NCBI GenBank assembly: GCA_018697675.1
Contig: JABINC010000043.1
Coordinates: 1 to 41,449, forward strand
Direction of reading: 5' to 3'
DNA length: 41,449 nt
Origin: Candidatus Peregrinibacteria bacterium
GTDB lineage: Bacteria > Patescibacteriota > Gracilibacteria > UBA1369 > JABINC01
Positions within the stretch are counted from its first letter, which is position 1, and each line of letters opens with the position of its first letter. The translations under genes and the position numbers were made by a program. A model generated the notes under the pieces. That model saw only the letters and a list, made by a program, of their open reading frames with translations, was not told the origin of the DNA and searched no databases. Positions 14,500 to 18,395 of this stretch are shown piece after piece.

Positions 14500-14856
14500 A
14501 TGAGTCAAATTGAATTTGAACAGGAATTCCTCGAAAATGCTGCAAGGGCGGCAGAGGCCTTAAAAAGAAATGCTAATGAAAAAATCACTGAACAGCGAGG
14601 TAGAGGCTGGCTACCTGAGGATTGTGAATCTATAGATGCCCCAGGGCCAAAGGTGTTTTTCTCAACAACTGAAGTGGGGACTCTCCTCTGCTGGCTAGGC
14701 AACAACGCACTGGCGCATGAAGAGGCGGAGGCCGCGGTGAGTAAGGGCATGATTAGTCAGGAACGTGCCGACGAACTTCTGAAAGAAGCTCCAATTCAGG
14801 CAATTGAAATGATAAGAAAGGCTGTAGAAGAACCTCTTAAAGGCTCTAGTGAATAG
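14500..14856 (+). CDS. Small acidic protein of unknown function (118 aa)
   Basis: The protein has 118 residues and I recognise no family. It looks mostly helical: an N-terminal helix (EFEQEFLENAARAAEALKRN), a middle segment with GWLPEDCESID and KVFFSTTEVGTLLCWLGN, and C-terminal helices (EEAEAAVSKGMISQERADEL). It is probably soluble and cytoplasmic. A TTGCAA-17-CATAAT promoter precedes it. It sits with a second small unknown gene between P1 and P2, and the two may belong to the array or be incidental passengers. Reality as a gene is supported by the promoter and an uninterrupted frame with protein-like composition. Confidence 0.6.
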   Translation: MSQIEFEQEFLENAARAAEALKRNANEKITEQRGRGWLPEDCESIDAPGPKVFFSTTEVGTLLCWLGNNALAHEEAEAAVSKGMISQERADELLKEAPIQAIEMIRKAVEEPLKGSSE

Positions 14857-14874
14857 AAATGGGGGGGGAAGTGA

Positions 14875-14979
14875 GAATTAAGATAATTAATAAAAGATAA
14901 TACTTGAGATTGGTAAGTCTCAATAAAACTTCTCGAGATTCGTAAGTCTCGCTAAAACTTCGGTTTTAATTCTTAATTC
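14875..14979 (+). other. Multibranched structured element before the 14987 gene
   Basis: An outer stem pairs GAATTAAG (14875-14882) with CTTAATTC (14972-14979) and, past a 2-base bulge, AATTA (14885-14889) with TAATT (14967-14971). Inside are two 29-base tandem repeats (14904-14932 and 14933-14961), each a hairpin: TTGAGA/TCTCAA around TTGGTAAG, then CGAGA/TCTCG around TTCGTAAG. The T-A pair next to GAGA in the first is C-G in the second, which is a compensatory change. A third hairpin, TAAAAC-TTCG-GTTTTA (14953-14968), has a stable UUCG loop and slightly overlaps the outer stem. It ends 7 bases before the ATG at 14987, so it could be a leader regulating that gene or a small RNA. No known riboswitch is recognised. 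Confidence 0.6.
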
Positions 14980-14986
14980 AAGAAAT

Positions 14987-15292
14987 ATGACCCAAGAATA
15001 TCCATTTCCAAGCGGATTTACTCCAGAAGTATTACCTACCGATGCAGAAATTTTGCATTTACTTTTCATGCTTTGGAGTAAATTGCCCGAAGATACGGAA
15101 GAAGCTACCAGAGAATACTGTTTTTTAAGAAACCGCATTGATGGACCACGCGCATTACTACAAAGACATCTCACACCTCCTATTTTCAGAATGGTAGTAG
15201 AAAGACGAAGGGCCTTGCGTGAAAAACTGAGAGAGCTTATCAATCCATTGCGTTTTAAAGTAATGATAGATGGGCGGCTTCATCTAGCTTGA
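14987..15292 (+). CDS. Small protein of unknown function (101 aa)
   Basis: This 101-residue protein is of no family I know. It is probably helical and soluble: TDAEILHLLFMLWSKLPEDT near residues 18-37, an Arg-rich middle (YCFLRNRIDGPRALLQRH), and RMVVERRRALREKLRELI near residues 67-85. Basic and acidic residues alternate in the last helix, which could be a coiled coil. It is preceded directly by a multibranched structured element, and its 3' end overlaps the candidate P2 promoter. It might be translated only when that structure opens, but this is inference. Confidence 0.55.
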   Translation: MTQEYPFPSGFTPEVLPTDAEILHLLFMLWSKLPEDTEEATREYCFLRNRIDGPRALLQRHLTPPIFRMVVERRRALREKLRELINPLRFKVMIDGRLHLA

Positions 15293-17021: not shown

Positions 17022-18395
17022 ATGCAAAGCTCTCTTTCACATCTCGACCTTGTACTGATCGGGGCTTATATATTGCTTTGTCTTTTTATTGGATGGAAGT
17101 CTTCACGGAATGAATCCACTGAAGGATTTTTGCTCGGAGATCGGAAACTTGGAACATTTGAGAATATTGCAACGATGCTGGCTTCGAAAACCGGTGGGGG
17201 AATGTTTCTGACCGCAGTAACTTTTATGTATTTATACGGCGGAGCAATCCTGTGGGCATATGTTGGGATTGGGGTTGGGTATTTGATTTTTGTGAAAATT
17301 GGGACGACACTTCGGAGACTTTCGGAGGAGAAAAAATATTACACATTGTCGGATTATTATTTTGATAAGTTCGATAATGTCGCTGGGTATACAACTGCGT
17401 TTGCGATCTTGATTGGACTAATGATGGGGCTGATAATTCAGCTCACAGGTGGGGCGATGATTATGAGCCAACTCATGGGATGGTCGTTTGAAGCAGCCCT
17501 AATTATCACGTCCGTGACCATTTTGATTTATATAACTCTTGGTGGATTCAAGGCGGTTGTGAAGACGGATATAGCTCAGTTTTTCGCATTGATTGTGCTG
17601 TCGACTTTTATTGGATTTGTACTGATAAATGGCATGGAGATGTCGTATGGCGAATTTGAATTTACGGCACTACCTGTGAAAACTTTAATCGGATTTTTCT
17701 TATTTGGGATTCTTTATCCGTTTGCTTCGGCTGAACTTTGGCAGCGAATTTATGCTGGGAAAAGCGTTAAATCAATTCAAAAAACTATCGTGGCTTCGGC
17801 GTTTATCTATGTGCTACTTGGGATCCCTTTTATGATGATGGGGCTCGGCATCAAGGCGAAATTGCCACCTACGAACAGTGAGGTTGCGTTGATCGAAGGA
17901 TTCCTACAGCTCCTACCTTCTGGCATTATGGGAATTGGGCTAGTAGCGATTTTTGCGGCGATTATGTCCTCTGCAGATACGGCTCTGTTTACGATGACCT
18001 CTGTTGTTCTGCAGGATTTTTATGACCGAATTCGGAAAACAACTGGACGAGTTGTTAGTAAGGGGAATTTGGTAAAGCTGTTTAGAGTCTGGCTTGGAAT
18101 ATTTATGATAGTTGGATTTTCTCTCTCATTATTTTTAAGGAGCATCAATGATGCGGCATTGATTTTTACAGGATTTGTACCGGTAACCGCTCTGACGGTC
18201 TTGTTTTCATGGATCTGGAAATGCATGCCAGGATATTTTTTCACACTGATGATTGGCTTCGGATATGCCGGATCGATTTATGCAATTTTTACAATTGGAA
18301 TCACCGAACAATTGATCCTGAGCGGACTTGAAGGGGCGTTGGTAGGCTTTGGAGTTGGACTTTTAATACATGGATGGGTTAAAATCCGCACATGA
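17022..18395 (+). CDS. Sodium:solute symporter (SSS family)
   Basis: The 457-residue protein has about 12-13 hydrophobic segments. SSS hallmarks are seen in order: a glycine-rich start FLLGDRKLGTFENIATMLAS, KTGGGMFLTA in the first core helices, TLGGFKAVVKTDIAQ in the middle, ELWQRIYAGKSVKSIQK, and IFAAIMSSADTALFT near the Na+ site region. Known members use sodium to import proline, sugars, pantothenate, nucleosides or similar; the substrate here cannot be told. It begins 17 bases after P2 and overlaps the P3 start by 4 bases (ATGA), so it is very likely co-transcribed and translationally coupled with the Cys-rich paralogs. Its import function may therefore relate to them. Confidence 0.88.
   Translation: MQSSLSHLDLVLIGAYILLCLFIGWKSSRNESTEGFLLGDRKLGTFENIATMLASKTGGGMFLTAVTFMYLYGGAILWAYVGIGVGYLIFVKIGTTLRRLSEEKKYYTLSDYYFDKFDNVAGYTTAFAILIGLMMGLIIQLTGGAMIMSQLMGWSFEAALIITSVTILIYITLGGFKAVVKTDIAQFFALIVLSTFIGFVLINGMEMSYGEFEFTALPVKTLIGFFLFGILYPFASAELWQRIYAGKSVKSIQKTIVASAFIYVLLGIPFMMMGLGIKAKLPPTNSEVALIEGFLQLLPSGIMGIGLVAIFAAIMSSADTALFTMTSVVLQDFYDRIRKTTGRVVSKGNLVKLFRVWLGIFMIVGFSLSLFLRSINDAALIFTGFVPVTALTVLFSWIWKCMPGYFFTLMIGFGYAGSIYAIFTIGITEQLILSGLEGALVGFGVGLLIHGWVKIRT

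Follow-up and report, generated by a model that had tools for sequence, protein, structure and literature searches.

A ~28-nt conserved leader unit, present in tandem in a Peregrinibacteria genome, as a candidate cis-regulatory RNA of Patescibacteria

The window analyzed here, the whole 41,449-nt contig JABINC010000043.1 of a Candidatus Peregrinibacteria bacterium (assembly GCA_018697675.1), carries, ahead of the gene for a 101-aa protein, a small and strongly conserved unit of ~28 nt that is present twice in tandem, and a total of ten units was found at eight loci, all of them in Patescibacteria. Six of these loci have a single unit and two, the window and a locus in genome G615, have a tandem pair. 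We consider the unit a candidate for a new class of cis-regulatory RNA with a topology like that of the preQ1-I riboswitches, of which it is not a member, and we think it probable that it works as a riboswitch-like ON switch in the broad sense, doubled in the window.

The structured element of the window

The initial annotation had described positions 14875-14979 as a multibranched structured element and had read it as a switchable leader or a small RNA of no recognized class. The features that it listed are all in the sequence (the leader parts and the gene behind them are all on the + strand). An outer inverted repeat, GAATTAAG-(AT)-AATTAA / TTAATT-CTTAATTC, has its 5' arm at 14875..14890 and the partner of that arm at ~14966-14979. 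Between the arms are two 29-nt tandem copies (14903-14931 and 14932-14960) that are 86% identical, each of which can fold, with one pair changed from T-A to C-G between them; this lone compensatory change is weak evidence, being expected by chance in ~5% of cases by our estimate. A competing hairpin predicted from the folds, AAAAC-UUCG-GUUUU (14954..14967), would take up the linker and tail of the second unit and has as its counterpart in G615 CAAAAAC-UUCC-GUUUUUG. The element ends 7 bases before the ATG at 14987. Upstream of it, a run of eight G residues lies at 14861-14868 between the preceding stop codon and the leader, in a window of 40% G+C.

As RNA, the 105-nt element has a predicted folding energy of -24.3 kcal/mol (z = -3.66), which none of 200 shuffled sequences reached. 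Folding energy alone is insufficient to prove function: the opposite strand has a strong fold too (z = -3.05), and when 183 intergenic regions were taken from 430 kb of this genome, window included, 25 of them had a best fold with z < -3.3. As such, we regard the feature as real by virtue of its conservation in other genomes, not of its folding energy. That conservation does not extend to the proposed multibranched fold, as the outer stem that would close it is present in no other member, the homologous tandem locus included. Its 5' arm is without counterpart elsewhere and probably does not belong to the unit; if transcription starts near unit 1, as it appears to do at the other loci, this arm would lie in the promoter and be untranscribed. 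The outer stem is thus best regarded as private to the window and outside the conserved unit.

Recurrence of the unit in Patescibacteria

Among 89 genomes of the order, a covariance model of the whole 105-nt element (R1) matched only itself at a convincing score, for want of conservation in the outer stem and flanks. The genome has one copy of the whole element, and searches of 59 relatives by DNA similarity produced no more than short, A+T-rich matches attributable to chance. When the repeat unit alone was used as a pattern, GAGATTNGTAAGTCTCNNTAAAA, in ~85,000 genomes, three matches were obtained, compared with ~0.5 to 1.6 expected by chance. All three were in Patescibacteria (Parcubacteria group JABMPQ010000002, Patescibacteria group JAFGPN010000018 and Uhrbacteria DNYJ01000023), in leader-like positions beside promoter-like sequence, and in each of them the unit continues with CTTCC, a sequence absent from the search pattern. 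Genomes G184 and G172 are apparently the same records as the first two of these matches, judging by the identical matched sequence.

Later model and pattern searches brought in five more units, two of them in G615 and the others in G330, G621 and G066, one per genome. Since a reversed control pattern, with up to one mismatch allowed, gave about as many total matches as the real pattern, matches of this type were accepted only if GAGA and CTC were present outside the pattern. The unit is described by the pattern TTNGNAAGNNNNNNNAAAACTTCN and by a 10-member model (R3). Weaker model matches (L215-L221 and L205-L212) were discarded, as they lacked the full loop and tail; the multi-genome model searches used strict filters, so divergent members were probably missed. 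The named loci come from genomes assembled from metagenomes, and the distribution of the unit is sporadic, with 5 of 353 genomes of the class carrying it by our count. It was not found in the genome of the same genus, nor was a second locus found in the window's own genome, which the search covered but for a few contig remainders. The hairpin pattern had 66 matches in viral contigs, mostly in a coding-looking context and none with the full unit, and stricter patterns gave no fitting match, so that the unit is in no viral contig tested.

The unit and its predicted pseudoknot

Each of the two 29-base repeats of the window is a copy of a ~28-nt unit, GAGAUU-GG(Y)AAG-nCUC-nnnAAAACUUCC. In an alignment of all ten units (nn-GAGAUU-n-G-Y-AAG-n-CUC-nnn-AAAACUUC-n), 21 of 30 columns are invariant, AAAA among them. 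Based on this alignment and a count of pairs, the unit probably fits an H-type pseudoknot in which P1 is formed by GAG/CUC and P2 by the loop nG(Y)AAG with the tail CUUCn. Unit 1 (14904..14933) would have P1 between GAG 14906-14908 and CUC 14919-14921, extended outward by a U-A pair, P2 between GG 14912-14913 plus AAG 14915-14917 and CUUCU 14929-14933, and an A-rich linker at 14922-14928. In unit 2 (14933..14962), which follows at the 29-nt spacing also seen in G615, P1 would join GAG 14935-14937 to CUC 14948-14950 with a C-G extension, and P2 would join CG 14941-14942 plus AAG 14944-14946 to CUUCG 14958-14962, with a C-G pair in place of the usual G-C. The tandem hairpins of the initial annotation are present and able to fold, but since their loop, nGUAAG, pairs with the tail CUUCn, two pseudoknots are the better reading.

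P2 consists of five pairs around one bulged pyrimidine and is paired in 50 of 50 cells across the ten units. One of these pairs varies: eight units have G-C, window unit 1 has G-U and window unit 2 has C-G, the C-G being a two-sided change that the pseudoknot explains. The named structure as a whole is paired in 92% of cells, compared with 27-56% for slid versions of it, and its covariation score of 0.098 (0.028 in shuffles) was reached by none of 500 shuffled alignments. Variation is confined to one P2 pair and one outer P1 pair, and the covariation bears on these alone; in 4 of 10 units the P1 positions 6/15 do not pair. Each tail in the window can be argued to pair with its own loop, since the end bases mismatch across units: the terminal U of tail 1 would face the C that opens loop 2, and the terminal G of tail 2 the G that opens loop 1. 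P2 is predicted from the complementarity of loop and tail in all ten units, and we infer from it that the pseudoknot would form in solution.

Promoters and downstream hairpins

A TTGACA-17/18-TATAAT-like promoter with 11 of 12 matches is located directly 5' of the unit at four loci (L143, L145, G615 and G066); the match is 9 of 12 in L144 and G330 and 8 in G621. Across the loci the -10 box ends 4 to 20 nt upstream of P1. The corresponding sequence in the window (14871..14901) is a possible weak promoter, GTGAGA-19 nt-GATAAT. It matches at 9 of 12 positions (shuffle p 0.10), stops 4 nt short of P1 and is placed mainly by analogy with the other loci. At every locus an ORF on the same strand lies downstream of the unit, and a free small RNA, the other option in the initial annotation, is less likely for this reason.

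The tail of the unit is complementary to sequences downstream of it. In L144 it can join a terminator, AAAACUUCCC/GGGAAGUUUU, and in L143 another, UCCGCC/GGCGGA-U6, while in G621 an AACUUCC/GGAAGUU hairpin lies over the purine-rich start site and ends at the AUG. In the window and G615 the tail can join an AAAAC/GUUUU hairpin; both hairpins are weak, and neither is significant by itself. The Shine-Dalgarno sequence GGAGG of L145 is a possible partner of CUUCC (one G-U), a pairing found in one local fold and absent with other boundaries. A hairpin mutually exclusive with P2 is clear in L144, L143 and G621 and weaker in the window, G615 and L145, and no clear competing hairpin was found in G330 and G066. 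Summed over the eight loci, the longest complement between tail and downstream sequence amounts to 44 nt, compared with 30.6 +/- 2.9 in shuffled sequences, none of 2000 of which reached this value; L144 and G621 are individually significant. This complementarity above shuffles, together with the leader positions of the unit in eight Patescibacteria genomes, lends support to the original suggestion of a switchable leader.

The genes behind the leader

The gene behind the window leader (14987..15292), which the leader putatively controls, encodes the 101-aa protein and has coding-like codon usage. The tandem pair in G615 precedes a gene for a 92-aa homolog of this protein (31% identity over 93 columns, E 7e-11 in a single comparison). 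This is the only homolog detected, and it was reached via the RNA motif, as neither its order nor the genome collection yielded a relative when the 101-aa protein alone was the query. The expectation that the leader would be conserved upstream of homologs was therefore borne out for the one homolog found. Window and G615 are identical at 54 of 62 leader positions (87%), compared with 108 of 273 positions of aligned coding DNA (40%) and 16 of the 60 nt upstream (27%), from which it follows that the leader changes more slowly than the protein. With the G615 homolog added, AlphaFold confidence rose from 48 to 73.5, and fold searches with this two-sequence model gave nothing significant. At the other loci the unit precedes small proteins of 60 to 155 aa that have no Pfam match; one downstream ORF is incomplete and has a sub-threshold PRA-CH match. 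The genes downstream of the eight loci indicate no common pathway.

The gene directly upstream of the window leader (14500-14856) encodes an orphan 118-aa protein and is strongly coding-like; no homolog of it was found in the genome of the same genus or in family libraries, and Pfam, PHROGs and NCBIfam gave nothing for either this or the 101-aa protein. The surrounding region (12749-34745) contains a run of about ten Cys-rich paralogs of ~550 aa, those scanned matching Pfam zf_Tbcl just above the cut-off. There are 21 zf_Tbcl matches in this genome and 17 in that of the same genus, an unusual expansion for a 1.46-Mb genome. Within the paralog array is a sodium:solute symporter gene (17022-18395) that is absent from the same-genus genome. 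In G330, the end of a zf_Tbcl-like protein (L225:1-276; sub-threshold zf_Tbcl_2) lies ~1.2 kb from the leader, which may be chance, as the family is common. In G615, a C-5 cytosine DNA methylase gene (L226:2223-3023) follows that of the 92-aa homolog.

Proposed mechanism and comparison with known RNA classes

We propose that the window transcript would begin with a 5' leader bearing the two tandem units, and that each unit could form an H-type pseudoknot composed of P1 (GAG/CUC, sometimes extended), a short AUU loop, the five-pair P2 and a linker, rich in A, that crosses P1. Binding of an effector, for which a small molecule is the simplest candidate, would stabilize this pseudoknot, so that P2 withholds the tail and the gene is expressed. 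Without P2, the tail of the last unit may instead build a downstream hairpin, either a terminator (L143, L144) or a start-site hairpin (G621), and expression would be lower; possible alternative partners are the Shine-Dalgarno GGAGG in L145 and the AAAAC/GUUUU hairpin in the window and G615.

That the element belongs to no known class, as first annotated, is supported by a search of 4227 Rfam families, in which it had no match at the gathering threshold. Only a tRNA was matched elsewhere in the window, and local Rfam matches to the leaders were far below threshold. The closest likeness is to preQ1-I, an H-type pseudoknot with UU beside P1, an A-rich tail and an AC/UC specificity position before the P1 3' strand (PMC11625349). 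The unit shares with it a very small, here predicted, H-type pseudoknot in an mRNA leader, the UU beside the P1 5' strand, the A-rich 3' linker and, as proposed, the competition with a terminator or Shine-Dalgarno sequence. However, all ten units have AAG-n at the AC/UC position, their second loop has just one base, which varies, no queuosine biosynthesis or transport gene lies behind the unit, the downstream ORFs being orphans, and the unit is predicted to be an ON rather than an OFF switch. The window, G615 and L144 leaders were not matched by the Rfam PreQ1 model, even when permissive E-values were allowed. Based on the missing AC/UC position, the one-base second loop and the lack of a queuosine gene or Rfam match, the unit was not filed as preQ1-I. 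The fluoride and ZTP (pfl) ON riboswitches follow the logic proposed here, a ligand-stabilized pseudoknot set against an intrinsic terminator, but their aptamers are larger or different and have another consensus. Tandem-aptamer leaders of the glycine and guanidine-II type likewise have a pair of short homologous units, one after the other, ahead of a single gene; their sequence and fold are different, and the unit described here is single at six of the eight loci. The general riboswitch characteristic of a conserved leader element in several species is seen at the eight Patescibacteria loci, each with a same-strand ORF 3' of the unit. In the literature searched, the core sequence GAGATTGGTAAG was found only in three papers on unrelated subjects. 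The more specific proposal, that the unit represents a new riboswitch class of ~28 nt, among the smallest natural aptamers, occurring singly or in tandem, responding to a putative ligand and controlling small orphan Patescibacteria proteins, is made tentatively, as we give it somewhat less than an even chance.

Alternative explanations

A different kind of partner was considered, namely that a regulatory protein binds the leader RNA, or that the leader pairs with a second RNA or with the ribosome, the loop and tail serving as a recognition sequence. Such binding would suit the very high primary-sequence conservation of the 28-nt unit and the unrelated orphan genes behind it, which form no obvious metabolic set. 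We nevertheless think it unlikely, as no common regulator was identified and the pseudoknot explains the loop-tail covariation of window unit 2 without a protein. The unit could also be a DNA operator, its dyad GAGA-N8-TCTC just 3' of the promoter being the site of a dimeric repressor, of which the window would have two in tandem. Its partly palindromic nature and location near the transcription start accord with this, but against it stand the asymmetric tail AAAACTTC, which is as conserved as the dyad, a mismatch at one dyad position in 4 of 10 units, the covariation of loop and tail, and the complementarity of the tail to terminators and start-site hairpins. An operator is, in view of these points, improbable.

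Quite improbable as well is a constitutive, non-switching role of the leader element, such as that of a hairpin at the 5' end which stabilizes the mRNA or aids translation. The unit is indeed near the 5' end of the predicted transcript, and G330 and G066 are without a clear alternative hairpin; in a stabilizer, however, the terminators that the tail builds in L143 and L144 would be purposeless. Finally, a chance occurrence, that is, an A+T-rich stretch carrying a tandem duplication, could be argued from the single copy in the genome, the lack of matches to the whole-element model in the order and the similar folding energies elsewhere. It is contradicted already by conservation, with ten near-identical units in comparable places in eight genomes, matches of CTTCC, GAGA and CTC outside the search patterns and a leader conserved far more than the gene behind it, and we consider it extremely improbable. 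The riboswitch-like ON switch thus remains our preferred reading.

Significance

Patescibacteria are a very large group of ultrasmall bacteria for which almost no literature on native riboswitches was found. Searches of the open literature returned PMC11665869 alone for riboswitches in Patescibacteria, in which they are mentioned only as a possible expression tool, and nothing for the candidate phyla radiation combined with structured RNA. A conserved 28-nt leader with a defined competing hairpin is directly testable in vitro and in reporters, and its tandem form permits a direct comparison of a one-unit and a two-unit switch. It could join the smallest known metabolite-sensing RNAs, and the leader offers a handle on small orphan proteins that are unassignable by sequence and fold searches.
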